Positions 2,523 through 43,287 of a stretch of 64,000 nucleotides of DNA are shown piece after piece; the first letter of the stretch is position 1, and the number at the start of each line of letters is the position of its first letter. The DNA is from Haloglomus halophilum (GTDB taxonomy: Archaea; Halobacteriota; Halobacteria; Halobacteriales; Haloarculaceae). The translations under genes and the position numbers were made by a program. The notes below the pieces were generated by a model. That model was not told where the DNA came from, did not search any database, and saw only the letters and a program-made list of their open reading frames with translations. The stretch spans positions 3,099,149-3,163,148 of the forward strand of contig NZ_CP101166.1 in NCBI RefSeq assembly GCF_024298885.1. Reading direction: 5' to 3'.

Positions 2523-4078
2523 GCCCAGACACCTCCGGGGCCCTCGGCCCCCTCGTCGGGAGCGTCGTCGAAGCACTCGCCGGCGGGACAGTCGCCGTCG
2601 GCGTGGGCACGGACCTCGCCGGCGAAGCGGTCCAGCGCCGTCCGGGCCGGGCGCGCCGCCTCGCGCCCGAACGCACAGAGGCTCGTCTCCCCCATCGTGC
2701 GGAGGAGTTCGCGCAGTCCGGCCTCGTCGTGGTCGCCGGCGTAGACCTCTCGGAGCCCCTCGTGGAGCTGCTTCGAGCCCTCGCGGCAGGGGACACAGCG
2801 CCCGCAGTTGGCCTCGCGGGCGAACGCGGCCCGGCGGCCGACGGCGGCCAGCACGCAGGCGCCCGCGAACGCCTCCACGGCACCCGCGGTGCCGCAGTCG
2901 GCGGCCCGGAGCGCGGGCGCCCCGGCGGGCACGTCGAGGTCGCGCGTCAGGCCACCGAAACGCCCCCCGACGACGGCCCAATCCGGCTTCCGACCGGTGT
3001 CGAGCGCCGTGAGTACTCGACCGACCGGTGCGTCCGTCGGGAGTTCGACGGTCGCCGCCGGGGCCATGGCGTCGCCGCCGGGTCCGCGCGGCGTGGCCGT
3101 GACGAGCCGCGTCCCCGGGTCCCCCGCGTCGGGGTCGAAGGCGTCGGGTTCCCGCAACAGCGCCACGAACTGGGCCAGCGTCCGGGGCGTGTGGACCACG
3201 GTCGGGCGGCCGTACAGCCCCCACTCGGCCGGGCCGGGGGGTCGTCGGCGCGCCTCGATGCGGTCCGACCCCTCCAGCGCCTCCAGCGCCATCGTCGGCT
3301 CGCCGGCGGCGAACGTGTCGGGCCCGGAGGCCACCTGCACGGTCACGGCCGCGGGGGCCAGCGCGTCGGCCGCGCGCGCGGTCCGGTCGGCCGCGAGGTC
3401 GTCGGTCTCGCCGACGTACACCACCACGTCATCGGCGTCGACGATGCCGGCGACGGCGAACGCGCCCGCGAGCACCTGTGCCGGCGCCGAGGCGAGCAGC
3501 AACTCGTCGCCGGCCACGGCCGCGTCGGCCTCGTTCGCGTTCACGACGACGACCGGGTCGCCCGCGGCGTCGCGGGCTGTCTCCCAGACGCCGGCGACGG
3601 GCCGGTCGCGCGCGGCGTCGCCACGCCCGCGGCCCAGCAACCCGACGCGCGCGGCGTGGTCGAGCGTCACCTCGGGGTCGCCCGGGAGCGACGGCCGCAG
3701 CTCGGGGTCGAACTCGTCGACGCGCGTCCAGCCACAGGGGCCGAGCATGCGCCGCCGGCCGACGGCCAGTGGCCCCTCCGCGGGGGTCGGGAACCGGGCC
3801 GTTCCGGGCTGGTGCTCCACGACGGCGTGTGCGTGGAGCATCGGCCGGCCGTCGTGGAACTCGCCCGCGAGTCGCTCGCAGGTCCCGATATCCGCGTTCG
3901 TGTGGATGGCGGTCCGCCCGTCGCGGGTGACGAGGGCCAGCGGCTCCAGTGCCGGCACGCCCGTGGACCCAACGGGGACCACCGCCACGTCCTCGGGCGC
4001 CGCCTCGCGGGTCGCGCGCAACCGCTCGGTCGCATCCCGGCCGGCGGTCACGGCGACCCGTGCGGTGGATTCGGTCAT
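2519..4078 (-). CDS. NuoF-like iron-sulfur partner of formate dehydrogenase, degenerate
   Basis: 519 residues related to the NADH-binding 51 kDa subunit of complex I and to FdhB/HydB. The C-terminal 4Fe-4S site is intact (CGRCVPCREG plus a later Cys in TSLCAFG). The central Rossmann region aligns by eye with NuoF (GEPTMALEALEG for GEETALINSLEG; LYGRPTVVHTPRTL). The FMN/NADH loop normally RGRGGAGF is GRGRGDAAR, and the N-terminal thioredoxin-like part has Ser/Thr where Fe-S cysteines are expected (VGSTGVPALEPL). NAD reactivity is therefore doubtful. ATG at 4078 is chosen because the open frame upstream lacks conservation and runs through the divergent promoter region. It heads the two-gene fdh operon. 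Confidence 0.85.
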   Translation of the reverse strand: MTESTARVAVTAGRDATERLRATREAAPEDVAVVPVGSTGVPALEPLALVTRDGRTAIHTNADIGTCERLAGEFHDGRPMLHAHAVVEHQPGTARFPTPAEGPLAVGRRRMLGPCGWTRVDEFDPELRPSLPGDPEVTLDHAARVGLLGRGRGDAARDRPVAGVWETARDAAGDPVVVVNANEADAAVAGDELLLASAPAQVLAGAFAVAGIVDADDVVVYVGETDDLAADRTARAADALAPAAVTVQVASGPDTFAAGEPTMALEALEGSDRIEARRRPPGPAEWGLYGRPTVVHTPRTLAQFVALLREPDAFDPDAGDPGTRLVTATPRGPGGDAMAPAATVELPTDAPVGRVLTALDTGRKPDWAVVGGRFGGLTRDLDVPAGAPALRAADCGTAGAVEAFAGACVLAAVGRRAAFAREANCGRCVPCREGSKQLHEGLREVYAGDHDEAGLRELLRTMGETSLCAFGREAARPARTALDRFAGEVRAHADGDCPAGECFDDAPDEGAEGPGGVWA

Positions 4079-5837: not shown

Positions 5838-6215
5838 TCACTCCTGCGCCGGTCCGCCCGGGAGCAGCTGGCCCCACATCACCTTCTCCGGTACCCGGAC
5901 CGTCAGCGGCGCCTCGACCGGAATCTGGCAGGAGAGTCGGGGGTAGCCCGCGGCTGCGGCGGCGCGGTCGTGCCAGTGCGTGGGTTCTGGAGCAGTGCCC
6001 CCCTCGAACCGCACGCCGCAGGTTCCACACAGCCCGCGTCCGCCGCAGTTGGCGACCCGCGAGACAGGCCCGTACACGTCGAAGCCCGCGTCCAGCAGCG
6101 CGTCCCGGAGTTGGGTGCCCCGCTCGACGCGGAGCGTCGTCTCGTAGTCGCCGGCCCGGACCGTCACCGGAATCGTGTCGTCCTCGCGGGGTCCGGCCGA
6201 GTCGTCGTCGCTCAC
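5838..6215 (-). CDS. 2Fe-2S ferredoxin-like protein
   Basis: 125 residues with the plant-type pattern NCGGRGLCGTC and a final Cys in LSCQIP, giving four ligands for a 2Fe-2S cluster. The GTG start at 6215 is chosen because the only upstream ATG in frame lies in the tRNA-Trp region. The first ten or so residues are acidic, as in haloarchaeal ferredoxins. It is a soluble electron carrier by family; its partner is not evident from neighbours, although the formate dehydrogenase operon is 1.8 kb away on the same strand. Confidence 0.82.
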   Translation of the reverse strand: MSDDDSAGPREDDTIPVTVRAGDYETTLRVERGTQLRDALLDAGFDVYGPVSRVANCGGRGLCGTCGVRFEGGTAPEPTHWHDRAAAAAGYPRLSCQIPVEAPLTVRVPEKVMWGQLLPGGPAQE

Positions 6216-6308
6216 GGTCGGCCGTTCGCACGCCGGCGGCGAAACGCTTCCGACGGCCTCCCACGGAACCGAAATCCCTTTAGACGGAACCGGGGTACGT
6301 GATGGCGA

Positions 6309-6486
6309 GGGGCTGTGGCCAAGCCAGGCATGGCGACTGACTCCAGAGGCCACGCGCCCGGGACGAGACTCCAGACTGATATACCGAGCGACCGGCTGAT
6401 CACCGCGTCGCGATGACGACCCTCTGGAGAACCGAGGCGCAACCGGAGATATCAGTCGATCGGGGGTTCAAATCCCTCCGGCCCCA
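6309..6486 (+). tRNA. tRNA-Trp (CCA) with 104-nt intron
   Basis: Acceptor arms 6309-6315 and 6479-6485 pair over 7 bp, discriminator A6486; D arm 6318-6334; anticodon stem ACTGA (6336-6340) with TCAGT (6452-6456); anticodon CCA 6343-6345; T stem GGGGG/CCCTC around TTCAAAT. The canonical position 37/38 is interrupted by 6347-6450. This exon-intron arrangement is the same as the known Haloferax volcanii tRNA-Trp gene. CCA is not encoded. Confidence 0.97.
6347..6450 (+). ncRNA. tRNA-Trp intron, probable box C/D guide RNA
   Basis: The 104-nt intron carries CTGA D-type boxes at 6376-6379 and 6396-6399 and a C-like box GCGATGA at 6410-6416. A segment CTCTGGAG (about 6422-6429) is complementary to the anticodon region CTCCAGAG. 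In Haloferax the tRNA-Trp intron guides 2'-O-methylation of positions 34 and 39 of its own transcript; the same role is inferred here. Confidence 0.75.
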
Positions 6487-6613
6487 TAACCGCTCTTTAC
6501 ACCGCTTAGAGAGATTCTCCTCCGGAATTTGCACATCATTTATCAACCCGCAGGGCAAGAGGATTCCGGTAGATATGACCCCCTGCCGATGGGGGCGGTG
6601 CGCCTTCTCGGTG

Positions 6614-7300
6614 TTACCCGGATATGTTGCCAATGGTACTGTAGGTGAAAAGGAAAACCACGGCGAAAAGTGCTAATCCAAGCGCCTTTACTAGTGAAAC
6701 CCAGAAGTTCAGTCCCTTCCCCTCGGTCAGTTCCCAATGAGCATATGGGAATAACCGATACCGATAGGCGGTACTGACTAAGGCAACCATGAAAATGAAG
6801 AATTTTATATATAATCCGGGGATGCGTCGTTCGGCAGGGTAGAATATCCCGAGAGGAGCGATAAGGAGAAAATAGTGGCCAGCGATAACTGAGAATATGA
6901 TTGCTAACGGAGCCATATACCCATGACCACTCAAATATGTTCGAAATCTGTTCTTTCGTCTTTCCATGAATTGGCTGATTATCTCCTTGATACTTTCCCG
7001 CCATCGGGCTTCTCCTTTGAGGAGGAGTCTATGGCTATCCTGCCGGTCGCAGTTCCCGATTATCTTGCCTTCCCCTCTTTCCCCCTCAAACGAGAACTGA
7101 AACGAGGTTGTATATTCGGGTACCATTCCGTCGGACAAGAGGCCATTTACAGAATGATATGAATCTTCGAACCCGTTTGAATCGATAGTTATCTCAATTA
7201 TTGGGCTCTCGAGCGCATTTATGATACATTCTTCAAGCTTCCGAAGGTCCCTCGGTCGGAGAGCGACTGAGGGTAACTCAGTTCTCGTGATTTCCCCCAT
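6614..7300 (-). CDS. Hypothetical membrane protein, AT-rich
   Basis: 228 residues not recognised as a family. The first 120 residues look soluble (mixed alpha/beta with several charged stretches); about 125-225 hold three or four membrane helices (GYMAPLAIIFSVIAGHYFLL, IKFFIFMVALVSTA, LVKALGLALFAVVFLF). Codon use and GC are clearly lower than in neighbouring genes, with many A/T third positions, suggesting recent acquisition. It lies about 130 bp downstream of tRNA-Trp, a common integration site, but no copy of the tRNA 3' end was found beyond it. ATG 7300 is the first start. Confidence 0.7.
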   Translation of the reverse strand: MGEITRTELPSVALRPRDLRKLEECIINALESPIIEITIDSNGFEDSYHSVNGLLSDGMVPEYTTSFQFSFEGERGEGKIIGNCDRQDSHRLLLKGEARWRESIKEIISQFMERRKNRFRTYLSGHGYMAPLAIIFSVIAGHYFLLIAPLGIFYPAERRIPGLYIKFFIFMVALVSTAYRYRLFPYAHWELTEGKGLNFWVSLVKALGLALFAVVFLFTYSTIGNISG

Positions 7301-7534
7301 ACCATTGAGAGAGTATTATGCCACTGAAATATATCCCCCCGGAGAACCCTCGATTATTGATATGAGAGGTCAATAGTTGCTATCGAGCGAGTTCTATAAT
7401 AGTCGCATATACTGCGCTCGATTCGTGGGATCTACCAGAGGATAGGGAGCTGCTCTAGCGAGCGTGCAGCGTGCTCGCCGGCAGCCCGACCCCCCGCCCG
7501 TAGCTTGAATACCCAGTCACCCCACGGACGGTTC
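7301..7534. other. AT-rich intergenic stretch
   Basis: About 230 bases, AT-rich in its first half, between the divergent hypothetical membrane protein and the esterase gene. It must hold both promoters; no repeat, tRNA fragment or integrase remnant was seen. Confidence 0.5.
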
Positions 7535-8488
7535 ATGCCCGACGAGCCCCACCCACAGGCGAAGGCGCTGCTCGAACAGCTCGACGCCCAGAACGCGCCG
7601 CCGACGTACGGCGTCACGCCCGAGGTCGCGCGCGAGCAGTTCCGCCGGCTGACCGCCGAGATGGAACCCACGGAGGTCGGGGACATCGCGGACTTCGCCA
7701 TCGAGGGGCCCGAGGGGCCGATTCCCATCCGGGCGTACGTCCCCGAGGGGGAGGGGCCGTTCCCGGTACTCGTCTACTACCACGGCGGCGGCTGGGTCAT
7801 CGGGGGTATCGACGAGTACGAGAACGTCACGTCGGCTATCTGCGACCGCGCGGAGGCCGTCGTCCTCTCCGTGGACTACCGGCTCGCGCCCGAACACCCG
7901 TTCCCCGCACAACTGGAGGACGCGTACGCGGCACTCGTGTGGGCCAGCGAGTTCGCCGCGGACGTCTCGGGGGACCCCGAACGCGTGGCCGTCGGCGGGG
8001 ACAGCGCCGGTGGGAACCTCGCGGCGGCCGTGTCGCTGCTGGCGCGCGACCGCAGCGGCCCCGCCATCGACCACCAGTCGCTCATCTACCCGGCGGTGGC
8101 CTCGCCCGTCATCCACGACTTCGACTCCTACGAGGAGAACGCGGAGGGCTACTTCCTGGAGCGCCGGAGCATCGAGTGGTTCTACGAGCGCTGGCTCCCG
8201 AGCGAACTGCACGCGCGCAACGAGTACGCCGCGCCCCTGCTCGCGCGTGACCTGTCCGGGCTCCCGCCGGCGACCGTCGTGACGGCGGGGTTCGACCCGC
8301 TTCGCGACGAGGGCATCGCGTACGCCGACCGGCTCGCCGAGGCCGACGTGCCGGTCCACCACCAGCACTACGACGATATGATCCACGGGTTCGCCAGCAT
8401 GACCGAGATGCTGGACACGGCCCACGCCGCCGTGGACGTGGTGGCAGACGAGGTCGCGGCGGCGCTCGATGCGTCGCGCTCGGGCTAA
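7535..8488 (+). CDS. Alpha/beta hydrolase, hormone-sensitive-lipase (HSL) type esterase
   Basis: 317 residues. HGGGW oxyanion motif at 83-87, nucleophile Ser157 in GDSAGG, acid Asp254 in FDPLRDEG and His284 in MIHGF give the full HSL-family catalytic set. It hydrolyses carboxyl esters of short or medium acids; natural substrate unknown. No signal peptide, so cytoplasmic. ATG at 7535 is preferred to a TTG ten codons upstream because family members begin just before the PQAKALLEQL-type helix. It stands as a single gene. Confidence 0.9.
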   Translation: MPDEPHPQAKALLEQLDAQNAPPTYGVTPEVAREQFRRLTAEMEPTEVGDIADFAIEGPEGPIPIRAYVPEGEGPFPVLVYYHGGGWVIGGIDEYENVTSAICDRAEAVVLSVDYRLAPEHPFPAQLEDAYAALVWASEFAADVSGDPERVAVGGDSAGGNLAAAVSLLARDRSGPAIDHQSLIYPAVASPVIHDFDSYEENAEGYFLERRSIEWFYERWLPSELHARNEYAAPLLARDLSGLPPATVVTAGFDPLRDEGIAYADRLAEADVPVHHQHYDDMIHGFASMTEMLDTAHAAVDVVADEVAAALDASRSG

Positions 8489-34968: not shown

Positions 34969-35337
34969 ACCTACATTCGGCGCTCAGTGATGTTAAGCGC
35001 CACCCTGGGTGGGGTACTCCCCGGCCTACACCCTCCAGGGGTCTCAGTTGTCGGGGGCGGTGTCGTTTGAAACCACCAGTCGCTGATATTCTGTTGAGGT
35101 CGTGCTGCATACAGAGTATACAGTCAGCATTGGGACCGCATTATTTTCCCTGTTTGAATCCTGGACCAACCGTTAGAACGTGCCTGCGTATCTTGCAGAG
35201 AGTGTCTCTCGTTCGGAACGCGATCACGGGAAATGATTTCGTGTGCCGAATCGAACTAGAGAAGTCTTCGATCCGTCATGCTCAGTCGAAGTATGATAAT
35301 ACTAACTTATATACTAATGTCAATTATAATATTAATA
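34969..35337. other. AT-rich upstream flank of the EF-Tu-like lipoprotein gene
   Basis: About 370 bases; no convincing gene. The last 60 bases are very AT-rich with TTATATAC at 35307-35314, about 25-30 bases before the ATG, a likely TATA box. GTTTGAA (35064) and TGCTGCATA (35103) recur, in the same orientation, after the gene at 37339 and 37366. Confidence 0.5.
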
Positions 35338-37299
35338 ATGAGTGGGAAACGTCGTGCAGATGTTGAATCGTTGGATACTGCCAGTAGTACTCCGCTAGCG
35401 ACCCGCAGAGCGCTCCTCGCAGCGGGTGGGGCTGTCGCACTCGGTGGGTTAGCGGGGTGTTCCGCGCTCGATGGCCTGTTAGACAGTGCAGGCGACCAAG
35501 TGGTCGGGACGACGGTGTCCGCACCGGCGGCGTTCTACGCAGGACGGCCGCCCTCGGATGGGTCGGCCAGTAGTACTAGCGAGCAGACGAATGGTAACGG
35601 GACTCAGTTCTTCAGCAATGGTCCGGCCGAGGTCCAGCACGTCCCGGCGACGGTCCGAGCGGACTCCCAGTCGATCGAACTCGAAGGTTGGTCGACCAGC
35701 GCGGTGACGAAGGCACCGGACTACGAAGGCGACAATACGCCCATAATCAAAGGGAGTGCTCTCGGTCGCGCCCAGGACTACAACTCCTCGCGCTCGAACA
35801 AATTCGAGTGGTGGGCCGGGCCCGACGACGAGGACGACGATGATGGGGATGGAGACGTCCTCGAAGCGATTCACGACGTCGAACTGGCGTTGCTCGGTCA
35901 CGTCACGACCGCACAGGCTGCCGTGGATCGAGAAGACCCGACCGCGGCCAGAGAAGCGTTCGACGCGTTCATCAACGCGACCACGAAGGCACTCCGACCG
36001 GCACTCGACGAGTGTGAAACGGACGTCTGTGGGACTGTCCGGGAGAACTCGGATGGTCGAGTCCAGGGGATCCGGATCGCCCGCAGGGCCGTCGACGAGG
36101 GGGACTGGACCGCTGCAAAGCGGGAACTCGAAGGTGTCGAGGAAATCGTCCTCGGCGATATCGAACGCCTCGACGACGAACTCGTCGAGCGCTATCCGGG
36201 CCGGCCGCGGTTCATCGATATCATCGAGTATCTGGGAGACGCGCCGACCATCGGCGAGTCGTTCACTGTGTGTCTGCCCGACGCCAGTCTCCCGGGCGAC
36301 CGTGGCTCGCTGGCCGAGGTTCTCACACTGGACCACGTGCTGGCGTACTTCGCGTCCTCGTACGAACCAGACGGGCGACGGACGCCGTTCAACAACCGAT
36401 ATGACCCGGTGTGCTGCTTCGATTACACCGACGACTATATCGAACTCGACGGCCCCATCTCGCTCCACGAGGACGTCGCCCGCCAGAACATCCTCTCTGC
36501 GGAACTGGACACCTACACCACCGAGAACCGGGCCATCGTCGGCTACGGTACTGAGGGCGGCGCCGTCGTCAGTGCCGCGGCGGCGTCGGCCGACACCGAC
36601 GGGAAACGCGTCTTCCTCGCGTCCGGAGATGTCACGGGCGAGATCATCCTGGGCGAAGACAGAGACATGGTGATGCCGGGAGATAATGTGTCGTCGGGTG
36701 ACTCCGGCGGCGACGGTTCGGTAAGCCCGACGCCGGTAAGCCCGACGCTGGTCTGTCCCGTCACCGCGACGCCCGAAGACAGCCCGACTCCATTGCCTGG
36801 GCTGTTCTACCTCAAGCGGATCCGTAACGACGACCAGATCGTCTTCGCCGGCGGATGGGTCCTCGACGAGGGCGCGCTCTTCGAGGATTCGGTGACGCTC
36901 CTGTTCGCGGAGGGGCCGACCGAAGTCGCGAGCGTGACCCCGGAGGACATCGGGAGCGACGACTACGACGGCCGCATCGTCGAGCAGTTCTCCCGCGACC
37001 GGAGTCGGTTCGGCTCGGCTTTGGTCAGTGGGACCCCCGAATCTGTCGCCGACTCTGGGATGATGCCAGGCCCCCTAAATGGTATCCTCGAGGGAGACAA
37101 CGACGAGCAGATGGCTGACGGCGGTGGCGAGGAAGTAGACATCCTCGGGATGGGGGCGGAAAAGCTGACTGTAGCAGCACTGGACGCACCGCTCGTCCAT
37201 CTCGCTGGTGCCGGAGAGCTATCGAAGGGCGATAAGGTCGCAACGGGCAGGATCGAAACCGGAGTGATAAACTCTGGCGAGGAAGTCGACATCCTGTAA
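35338..37299 (+). CDS. Tat lipoprotein carrying EF-Tu-like peptides
   Basis: 653 residues. Signal TRRALLAAGGAVALGGLAGC predicts Tat export and a lipid anchor. Most of the mature part is unrecognised, with an acidic run at about 164-173. Four peptides resemble bacterial EF-Tu: YEGDNTPIIKGSALG (129-143), GRRTPFNNRYDP (346-357), DVTGEIILGEDRDMVMPGDN (431-450) and ATGRIETGVINSGEEVDIL (635-653). Their order differs from EF-Tu (domain I end, III, III, II), and no GTPase motif is present. The last peptide continues past the stop. A TATA-like TTATATAC precedes the ATG. Codons are less GC-rich than the backbone. Function unknown. Confidence 0.8.
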   Translation: MSGKRRADVESLDTASSTPLATRRALLAAGGAVALGGLAGCSALDGLLDSAGDQVVGTTVSAPAAFYAGRPPSDGSASSTSEQTNGNGTQFFSNGPAEVQHVPATVRADSQSIELEGWSTSAVTKAPDYEGDNTPIIKGSALGRAQDYNSSRSNKFEWWAGPDDEDDDDGDGDVLEAIHDVELALLGHVTTAQAAVDREDPTAAREAFDAFINATTKALRPALDECETDVCGTVRENSDGRVQGIRIARRAVDEGDWTAAKRELEGVEEIVLGDIERLDDELVERYPGRPRFIDIIEYLGDAPTIGESFTVCLPDASLPGDRGSLAEVLTLDHVLAYFASSYEPDGRRTPFNNRYDPVCCFDYTDDYIELDGPISLHEDVARQNILSAELDTYTTENRAIVGYGTEGGAVVSAAAASADTDGKRVFLASGDVTGEIILGEDRDMVMPGDNVSSGDSGGDGSVSPTPVSPTLVCPVTATPEDSPTPLPGLFYLKRIRNDDQIVFAGGWVLDEGALFEDSVTLLFAEGPTEVASVTPEDIGSDDYDGRIVEQFSRDRSRFGSALVSGTPESVADSGMMPGPLNGILEGDNDEQMADGGGEEVDILGMGAEKLTVAALDAPLVHLAGAGELSKGDKVATGRIETGVINSGEEVDIL

Positions 37300-37344
37300 A
37301 TGGGTGCCGAAAAATTAACTAGCGTTGTCAAATACACGGTTTGA
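37300..37344 (+). pseudogene. In-frame continuation of EF-Tu-like peptide after stop
   Basis: Directly after the TAA (37297-37299) the same frame reads MGAEKLTSVVKYTV then TGA. MGAEKLTS is the usual continuation of GEEVDI(I/L)G in Bacteroidota EF-Tu, so the stop stands at the place of a conserved glycine. The related copy at 37126-37170 has GGG there. Confidence 0.5.
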
Positions 37345-37567
37345 ATCAGTTGCAGATCGATACTATGCTGCATAGACGCTCTGTATTGACCAATCGGTAC
37401 CACCCGAATCGGTCGCTTCTCCTGTGCAAGATAAGCGCCCTGTATCTCGCACGCCGTTTCTATCAGTTCCCATGGGTTTCGATAGAGGCGGGTGCGGACA
37501 CGGCGGACCGGTCACCACTTGACCAGCTACTGTCTGGCTTGCATACCGCGCCGCAGGCGCGGTTTCA

Positions 37568-41915: not shown

Positions 41916-42016
41916 AGCCGTCCCTGTGCCGTCGGGGGAAAGAGCGTATCGGTCAGCCGGACACTCGGAAGTCACGGCGCACGAAACGTTTTCAGTGAAA
42001 GCAAAGTACAGTGGGT

Positions 42017-42850
42017 ATGGCCGCACTCGAGCACGAGTTCTCCCTGGATGGGATGCTGGTATTTAATGGTCTCTACGAATGCCGGGTCCCGAATGAACTC
42101 GACTTCGAAACCGTTCTGCTCTCTCTTCCCGAGTACGAGGAGGGCACCCAAGAAGACCCGGGTGACGGATTCACCCGTCTCGCTCTCGACAGTGCATTGA
42201 GTTCTCGAAGGGATGTCGAGGAGGAATTAGGGGAAGAGTTGCGTGAGGTCGACCACATCCGTTACGTAGCTGAACAGTATGAGAGGACGGTTGCTGAGGT
42301 TGACGGCGAACGCCGTGCGGTATCGGTTCCATCCCAAAGACGGGTTGATCTCCACTGGCGTTTTCCGGACTTCCTTGCTGCTAGAGGTAGCCGTGAGGAC
42401 ACGAAGCAGGCAGTTAGCACTCTACAGAAGGAACTGGGTGGCGATTTTGGATTTCTGAAGCTGGAATTTGACAGTCACTTCCTCCAACAGTTATTCGAAG
42501 AGATGGAACCGGTGCCGGGGCCCCTACGTCTCGAACGGATCACGGAGGTGGACCTCCGCTCAACCTCGGGTAAATTTGGTCAATTCAACCGGGTCTCCAC
42601 AGAAGGAAAATCTCTCGACAGGAGTGATATCATCAGTAGGCTATCCAACGAGCATGAAATTGAGAGTCTCGGCGGGGTGTTCGAGCTTGAGGGACACGAG
42701 ATTCATGCAACGGTGTCGACGAACGGGCGAATCCATGTTCGGGCCTCCGGTGACATTCAGCATCGAGACGATTACGGCCGAATATTCCTTGCGCTTGGTT
42801 TCCTGAATCGCTTCATCGAGACGTATCGTCACTGGAAATCTGGCAAATGA
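42017..42850 (+). CDS. Unknown protein, first gene of AlbA_2 unit
   Basis: 277 residues, not recognised. Soluble, charged, with a central segment (about 95-150, VDLHWRFPDFLAARGSREDTKQAV) and a C-terminal beta-rich part with EGHEIHATVSTNGRIHVRASGDIQ, ending in a helix ETYRHWK. GC and codon use are below the chromosomal norm, suggesting transfer. Its stop overlaps the start of the AlbA_2 gene by 4 bases, so the two products are made together. It starts 100 bp from the divergent Dna2-like gene. Confidence 0.75.
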   Translation: MAALEHEFSLDGMLVFNGLYECRVPNELDFETVLLSLPEYEEGTQEDPGDGFTRLALDSALSSRRDVEEELGEELREVDHIRYVAEQYERTVAEVDGERRAVSVPSQRRVDLHWRFPDFLAARGSREDTKQAVSTLQKELGGDFGFLKLEFDSHFLQQLFEEMEPVPGPLRLERITEVDLRSTSGKFGQFNRVSTEGKSLDRSDIISRLSNEHEIESLGGVFELEGHEIHATVSTNGRIHVRASGDIQHRDDYGRIFLALGFLNRFIETYRHWKSGK

Positions 42851-43287
42851 GCGGGGAAGAGGACCACGAACTCGAAATCATCGGGATGACTGTCAAGGAG
42901 GCGATTGATGCTGGGGAATCTCAGTCAATAGAGTACAAGCGTGAGATCAACGACGCGAGTGATATCGCGAAAGAGGTCGTTGCTCTAAGTAACAATGGTG
43001 GTGGGACCGTGTTCGTCGGTGTCAATGACGACGGAACCGTAGCCGGAATAGAGCGTCCGAAGGAAGCGGGTGAGCGGATTGCCGGAGTTCTGCAAGATAT
43101 TCAGTCACCACCTAATTACGATATTCTGGAACTCGAAGTTCAGGATGAGTCGATAATCTCGATTATCGTACCTAACTATCCACACTTTCCCCTCGCCTAT
43201 GACTACAAATTCTACCAGCGCCGCGGAACTACGAAACAGAAGCTCACCCCTCCCGAGGTCTGGGAGCTGATGCCAGACAGGAACTGA
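42847..43287 (+). CDS. AlbA_2 (Schlafen-type) domain protein
   Basis: 146 residues, essentially the stand-alone AlbA_2 domain: ESQSIEYKREIND, DIAKEVVALSNNGGGTVFVGVNDDGTVAGI and the end FYQRRGTTKQKLTPPEVWEL. The family covers ATP- or nucleic-acid-binding regulators and Schlafen RNases; the conserved acid-acid-Lys (E-x-E-Y-K) set is present, so nuclease activity is possible but unproven. ATG overlaps the upstream stop (ATGA). Lower GC than its neighbours. It lies between a DNA-end-processing helicase and ordinary genes. Confidence 0.85.
   Translation: MSGEEDHELEIIGMTVKEAIDAGESQSIEYKREINDASDIAKEVVALSNNGGGTVFVGVNDDGTVAGIERPKEAGERIAGVLQDIQSPPNYDILELEVQDESIISIIVPNYPHFPLAYDYKFYQRRGTTKQKLTPPEVWELMPDRN

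Follow-up and report, generated by a model that had tools for sequence, protein, structure and literature searches.

EF-Tu- and HU-like peptides in permuted and interchangeable positions in a family of predicted haloarchaeal Tat lipoproteins

Architecture of the lipoprotein gene

The gene described here lies in a 64,000-nucleotide stretch of Haloglomus halophilum DNA, which is referred to at its full length as the window, and its predicted product combines a lipoprotein signal, conserved core blocks and short segments resembling bacterial EF-Tu and HU. The features of the locus are as follows.

35167..37389, + strand: transferred unit, comprising the gene with flanks of about 170 nt on its 5' side and 90 nt on its 3' side; identity to locus L050 98.7%
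35338..37299, + strand: Tat lipoprotein gene, 653 aa, stop TAA at 37297-37299
35401..35460, + strand: twin-arginine signal and lipobox TRRALLAAGGAVALGGLAGC, residues 22-41; RR, G40 and C41 invariant in 79 members
35719..35766, + strand: EF-Tu cassette, end of domain I, DYEGDNTPIIKGSALG, residues 128-143; 15/16 with Fluviicola EF-Tu
35770..35802, + strand: family core motif AQDYNSSRSNK, residues 145-155; exact motif at family loci only
35848..36192, + strand: four-helix bundle, residues 171-285, confidently predicted by structure prediction
35959..35994, + strand: HU-like peptide FDAFINATTKAL, residues 208-219; 11/12 with haloarchaeal exported HU
36370..36408, + strand: EF-Tu cassette, domain III, DGRRTPFNNRYDP, residues 345-357; degenerate here, exact in L054
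36412..36426, + strand: recurring peptide CCFDY, residues 359-363; in four different family slots, source unidentified
36628..36693, + strand: EF-Tu cassette, domain III, DVTGEIILGEDRDMVMPGDNVS, residues 431-452; 22/22 with Fluviicola
36817..36903, + strand: conserved core block RIRNDDQIVFAGGWVLDEGALFEDSVTLL, residues 494-522, from the family alignment
37126..37170, + strand: EF-Tu cassette, domain II, GEEVDILGMGAEKLT, residues 597-611; 15/15
37177..37218, + strand: conserved seam ALDAPLVHLAGAGE, residues 614-627; C-terminal cassettes diverge beyond it; duplicated in L055
37237..37296, + strand: C-terminal EF-Tu cassette, domain II, VATGRIETGVINSGEEVDIL, residues 634-653; 20/20
37275..37320, + strand: second copy of a 46-nt repeat, including the premature TAA and the untranslated cassette remainder MGAEKLTSVV

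Residues are counted from the ATG at 35338, and an in-frame ATG further upstream (35278) is a possible alternative start. The earlier note had extended the gene to 37344, an end that is attained only by reading through the TAA at 37297-37299. Its description of a lowered GC content agrees with our values (0.637 for the coding sequence and about 0.41 for the flanks, against 0.687 for the window). Other low-GC stretches are found within the window at 42001-43000 (0.53) and 6001-8000 (0.58-0.61), compared with 0.69. The lipoprotein signal that had been proposed is also in place, with a twin arginine, a hydrophobic stretch and a lipobox cysteine at residues 22-41. By sequence criteria the protein qualifies as a haloarchaeal Tat lipoprotein, its cellular export and lipidation being inferred.

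An exact-motif search for AQDYNSSRSNK covered 194 haloarchaea and 20 Bacteroidota. DYNSSRSNK was considered as a further Bacteroidota peptide and rejected: it was found in none of the 20 Bacteroidota genomes and its haloarchaeal occurrences were confined to family loci, and it is therefore regarded as a core motif. A PDB sequence search with the core gave no match, a single-sequence model was confident only for a generic four-helix bundle, and the predicted bundle returned no significant fold match. The 46-nt repeat lies around the seam, with its first copy at 37125-37170.

EF-Tu segments in permuted order

Four EF-Tu-like peptides had been reported in the earlier note, and these were located at residues 128-143, 345-357, 431-452 and 634-653, together with a fifth segment, GEEVDILGMGAEKLT, which had been overlooked at residues 597-611. 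In order along the protein, the five segments correspond to EF-Tu residues 162-177, 318-330, 338-359, 240-254 and 227-246 (numbering follows L107), giving the domain order I, III, III, II, II and confirming the claimed permutation. Four of them align with a single Crocinitomicaceae EF-Tu, that of Fluviicola, at 15/16, 22/22, 20/20 and 15/15 residues (segments 128-143, 431-452, 634-653 and 597-611, respectively), and these identities support the suggestion of a mosaic protein holding Bacteroidota-type EF-Tu fragments. The piece at 128-143 is an insertion, and other subfamilies have no insertion there.

Because individual peptides of 12-15 aa are short, motifs of this kind could in principle have arisen by chance or convergence; the GGRHTPF-like (here GRRTPF) piece at 345-357, the weakest in the window protein, is identical at only 9/13 positions when taken alone. 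In relative L054 that piece is exact (EEGGRHTPFHNKYRPQF, 17/17) and in L055 it is nearly so. The resemblance to EF-Tu, moreover, was recovered by NCBIfam EF-Tu models at E = 3.9e-11 to 4.5e-8 (hmmscan), and a phmmer search of the PDB with the window protein returned EF-Tu as the sole match (best 5.8e-5). Segment scores, calculated as ungapped BLOSUM62 sums, were 114, 96, 85, 74 and 63, well beyond those of 60 shuffles (mean 36, maximum 51), and reversed, neighbouring and unrelated proteins had no 8-residue word in common with the family. On these comparisons the segments count as homologous to EF-Tu in sequence, and chance or convergence can hardly be entertained; for the EF-Tu and HU pieces together, a chance origin was already refuted by E-values, shuffles and word counts.

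Two further candidates were set aside. The window protein is not an EF-Tu translation factor, since the GTPase motifs and the contiguous I-II-III arrangement are missing and TIGR00485 scores 35.5 bits against a cut-off of 522.4. Host EF-1alpha was rejected as the source, the host EF-1alpha-like matches being far below the EF-Tu cut-off and EF-Tu-only residues being present. The assertion that no G-domain motif is left holds for the window protein and fails for relative L028, which carries the EF-Tu G-domain piece HADYVKNMVTGA.

Donor type and codon turnover

When named genomes were scanned with the peptides joined end to end, Bacteroidota tuf genes were retrieved, and the best of these belonged to Fluviicola sp. 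NORP2 and to two species of Brumimicrobium. Among known EF-Tu proteins the nearest is thus of the Fluviicola/Brumimicrobium type (Crocinitomicaceae), as expected from the Bacteroidota source that had been suggested. Of 229 genomes of Fluviicola's order, only 5 have the signature LGEDRDMVMPG. The HU of Fluviicola NORP2 likewise matches family HU pieces exactly (MNKAELIEAMASHA, 14/14; SISKRSARTGRNPQTGKEIQIAA, 23/23; VKFKAGAELSKAVN, 14/14).

The DNA behind these peptides has changed far more than the residues. DNA identity between the four strong fragments and Fluviicola tuf is 71-77%, GC3 is 0.56-0.77 in the fragments compared with 0.29 in the donor-type tuf, and only 5/20 and 9/22 codons are identical where the residues agree at 20/20 and 22/22. 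With codons mostly changed and residues retained, the peptides have therefore outlasted codon replacement. The recency of the tuf fragments that the earlier note had implied does not survive, the codons being almost wholly different despite the same residues, and recent uptake of AT-rich tuf DNA is excluded, as GC3 and the few shared codons show. The identification of the donor rests on its nearest known relatives, and a GC-rich donor absent from the databases cannot be excluded. There is good support for an origin in which Bacteroidota-type peptides were captured and shuffled.

Distribution and content of the family

Of 392 Halobacteria genomes, profile searches assigned family members to 89 at E<=1e-6 and to about 77 at E<=1e-10, the weaker matches possibly reflecting the signal peptide alone; the core scan left out all other prokaryotes. 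The window genome has two paralogues. With regard to antigenic variation from silent copies kept within one genome, G000 has three intact members and a single silent cassette was seen family-wide. Members occur in Halobacteria genomes and haloarchaeal plasmids, where the public plasmid annotation reads 'hypothetical protein', and none was found in phages or viral contigs. Neighbourhood conservation was not detected in four annotated plasmid loci, the adjacent genes being unrelated, and no toxin family was recovered from Pfam, NCBIfam or PHROGs. One member, L012 (G006:C1:1949.1-1949.9 kb), is split into two reading frames and appears as a decaying copy.

Over the 79 members of family alignment A2, NCBIfam EF-Tu models matched 11-12 (best 3.9e-11) and HU-beta matched 13 (best 6.9e-20). 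EF-Tu is only one source, and HU is commoner across the family. RCC1, FG-GAP and MopE motifs are recurrent but weak, and tail-tube gp19 and Hcp motifs are recognisable and also weak, the Hcp-like motif having no PDB match. The family has 1912 8-residue words in common with EF-Tu and 280 with HU, compared with none of the 137,508 words in 1,011 further ORFs at the Bacteroidota loci concerned and none from reversed EF-Tu or HU. The earlier note had held that homologues lacking similarity at the four peptides would refute its proposal; the exact window peptides are indeed missing from homologues across the haloarchaea, where other peptides of bacterial origin are found instead, or the same one in a different slot, so that the objection stands only in part.

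Several recurrent peptides have no identified source. CCFDY, GRKGLNAVNVK and TNLVPAVNTISSR recur across members of alignment A2, the first two in differing slots; a source was sought for CCFDY, NAVNV and TNLVPAVNTISSR without success, including a search of viral contigs for TNLVPAVNTISSR. Outside the family, an unrelated 127-aa exported protein (L233, G269:C1:877477-877824) shares the EF-Tu domain III peptide (STDVTGEIILGEDRDMVMPEVSVTITI), its arginine codon being the donor-like CGT. This orphan protein had no convincing homologues, and it is possibly an independent capture.

Exchange of cassettes and mobility of the gene

Cassettes occupy loops and the C-terminus, with the same cassette appearing in different slots and different cassettes in the same slot. 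The EF-Tu domain III cassette occupies columns 759-817 in the window clade and columns 487-512 in L061, L067, L072 and L073; GIDKKDIRRG is found in a loop at column 670 and at the C-terminus at column 1409; the HU arm, the HU C-terminus, CCFDY and RKKPGR each occur in two to four slots. L057 has an RCC1-like VYCWG in place of the EF-Tu cassette of the window clade. In a tree built without the slot columns, each labelled group requires one change relative to the other labelled groups, with unlabelled relatives intermixed. Six alternatives were recognised at the C-terminus (the HU C-terminus, two EF-Tu pieces, HU beta1-2, TNLVPAVNTISSR and SADGRLDRCERTLHGLESA), the HU C-terminus forming the end of about 60 of the 79 members. 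The paralogues L003 and L020 (G000:C1:442.3-444.6 kb, minus strand), whose core blocks are reordered, contain nearly all HU parts in permuted order, and they also hold an EF-Tu-like IEKDQVKRGM and an Hcp-like DKASPKIY.

The clearest trace of exchange was found in L055. Its translated end is a window-type EF-Tu cassette, and 3' of the stop at 3423 there remains an untranslated second C-terminus, DAPLVHLAGARERSPNEDIGLLSRGIDKKEIRRGM, of the same type as the translated one in L053, L054 and L056. The old C-terminus has been displaced behind the stop, from which we conclude that C-termini are swapped through recombination. No displaced C-terminus was seen at the remaining loci, where the flanks are in many cases short.

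Whole genes move as well. L050 belongs to a genome of another haloarchaeal family, and its flanks differ from those in the window; the two are alike only over 35167-37389, and the gene therefore moves alone between haloarchaeal families. The recent transfer is that of the whole lipoprotein gene between haloarchaea and not of tuf DNA.

Exported tandem HU proteins of haloarchaea

A two-HU-domain protein is encoded in about 33 of 392 Halobacteria genomes. Its domains are nearly the same in sequence as Crocinitomicaceae HU, and a Tat-type signal precedes them in the examples read. Loci L220-L229 (for instance G107:C1:1825152-1825751) are of this type, and one on a Halorubrum plasmid (L277) is annotated merely as 'HU family DNA-binding protein'. 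The HU pieces of the lipoproteins match the exported haloarchaeal HU at 18/18 (LDAFINATTKALKKGDRL), 23/23 (SISKRSARTGRNPQTGKEIQIAA) and 14/14 (VKFKAGAELSKAVN) residues, and because several pieces match exactly, the exported HU may be their immediate source. A contiguous HU fold (PF00216, about 90 aa) was rejected for the family proteins, the window protein having one 12-aa piece and L020 two permuted stretches (E 9.2e-16).

These exact matches would also be expected if the lipoprotein anchored exported tandem HU, with any bound DNA, at the surface through HU-derived strands and helices, the EF-Tu pieces being later replacements in the same slots. Consistent with such docking, the family is present in 21 of 32 exported-HU genomes compared with about 20% overall (Fisher p 3e-9, phylogeny uncorrected). 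The window genome, however, has no full HU, the permuted HU parts of L003 are hard to square with a single docking mode, and the EF-Tu cassettes are left unexplained. We regard docking as improbable.

Selection on the cassettes and possible function

Whole-gene dN/dS is about 0.3. Among L053, L054 and L056, cassette dN/dS is 0.01-0.06, with 1-2 nonsynonymous changes per 111 sites in three cassettes versus 0.053-0.078 per site elsewhere. Synonymous divergence in these cassettes (0.27-0.47) exceeds that of the surrounding gene (0.17-0.22), and between L054 and L056 synonymous changes number 14/30 in cassettes versus 79/454 in the rest (Fisher p 0.0004). Because synonymous divergence lies above that of the surrounding gene, the residue identity may partly reflect re-acquisition or exchange. 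The comparison of the window gene with L051 is mixed. One cassette has four synonymous changes but hardly any change of residues (dN/dS 0.06), and another is DNA-identical; the piece at 128-143 (5 nonsynonymous to 1 synonymous) and the cassette at 597-611 (4 to 0) are decaying, and the five fragments pooled give 0.57 versus 0.28 for the remainder of the gene. For some cassettes, then, the exact peptide is likely to be under selection, but this is not shown for all of them.

The decaying pieces and the pooled ratio are what a functionless patchwork would produce, in which bits of bacterial DNA became fixed neutrally in the tolerant loops and end of a fast-evolving lipoprotein. The slots do lie within variable loops, the C-terminal cassette is cut off by a premature stop, and haloarchaeal genes are known to capture bacterial gene fragments (PMC5992828). 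Neutrality accounts poorly, however, for an HU C-terminal peptide kept in about 60/79 members despite varying codons, for GEIILGEDRDMVMPG being identical in P0001 and L053/L054/L056 at pS 0.32-0.43, and for sources that are nearly all EF-Tu and HU and not random genes. It is thus rather unlikely, and yet not to be dismissed.

The observations show that the peptides are identical to bacterial ones, that members share slots, that one cassette has been displaced, that the gene has been transferred and that codons have changed without their residues; on this footing the following mechanism may be proposed. The window gene belongs to a haloarchaeal family whose products are predicted to be exported by the Tat route and lipid-anchored at the surface. 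Their conserved core offers a number of loop slots and a single slot at the C-terminus, each filled in frame by a peptide of about 5-35 aa. These peptides are copies of parts of bacterial proteins, chiefly the EF-Tu and HU of a Crocinitomicaceae-type bacterium; the pieces of HU probably arrived through, or together with, the haloarchaeal exported tandem HU. Recombination exchanges cassettes among members and genomes, most clearly at the C-terminus beyond the seam LDAPLVHLAGAGE, and the whole gene travels between haloarchaea as a single-gene unit. It is inferred that the exact peptide sequence is selected and that its display mimics bacterial EF-Tu, HU and perhaps tail-tube parts, so as to bind or distract something that encounters these proteins in mixed halophile communities. 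Mimicry has no experimental support, and on a family of exported lipoproteins whose captured and exchanged peptides work through such display our judgement is evenly balanced. A more specific version is offered tentatively and with doubt, namely that haloarchaea share a pool of exact EF-Tu and HU peptide copies (probably also tail-tube and Hcp), interchangeable sets of which are displayed at the surface under selection; here the units captured, moved from slot to slot and kept by selection would be linear peptides and not folded domains.

Selection for exact residue identity with a bacterial target would equally follow if the protein were a precursor from which extracellular haloarchaeal serine proteases free EF-Tu and HU peptides that disturb the proteins of competitors. 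Haloferax mediterranei secretes a protease-activated antimicrobial precursor (HapP, PMC12893001), but this is a much smaller and different protein, no cleavage or activity data are available for the lipoproteins, and the route of such peptides into cells is unknown. We give this explanation little credence.

Comparison with known systems

Set against bacterial EF-Tu (TIGR00485), the window protein has exact segments from domains I, II and III, but it is a predicted exported lipoprotein in which these are scattered, permuted and without GTPase motifs. Compared with bacterial HU (PF00216) and the exported tandem HU, the lipoproteins again hold exact segments, and the HU C-terminus ends most family members; their HU, in contrast, is never contiguous and is permuted in L003 and L020.

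In Rhs and CDI polymorphic toxins, a conserved seam is followed by alternative C-termini and the old C-terminus is left as a downstream orphan. The window family resembles them in its seam and alternative C-termini, with an orphan module seen once (L055), and differs in having neither a toxin domain nor an adjacent immunity gene, in cassettes that are EF-Tu and HU pieces, and in the exchange of loops as well.

Domain shuffling is common. No described system matched in-frame, sub-domain shuffling of essential, abundant proteins with residues kept through codon turnover and pieces passing from slot to slot, and no description of sub-domain, permuted, interchangeable EF-Tu/HU peptides was found in the literature searched, which had partial coverage. 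If display is true, recognition of linear EF-Tu and HU peptides between archaea and bacteria is implied; if the cassettes are neutral, they show bacterial protein fragments entering archaeal genes below the domain scale. With dozens of members bearing differing tile sets on one core, direct tests are possible.

HapP, for which N-terminal 45-aa and C-terminal 190-aa constructs have been described (PMC12893001), is likewise secreted by a haloarchaeon and may act in competition; it is a smaller, different protein, bacterial peptides have not been reported in it, and its identity with the window lipoprotein is excluded on size. The ChiC genes of Haloarchaea join a native part to components of bacterial origin, assigned by BLAST overlap and domain annotation (PMC5992828), and the window gene likewise joins a bacterial-origin component to a native part. 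In the window family, the components differ in being 5-35 aa pieces of housekeeping proteins that are permuted, multi-slot and swapped between members. The nearest described kind is nevertheless that of the haloarchaeal chimeric composite genes (PMC5992828).
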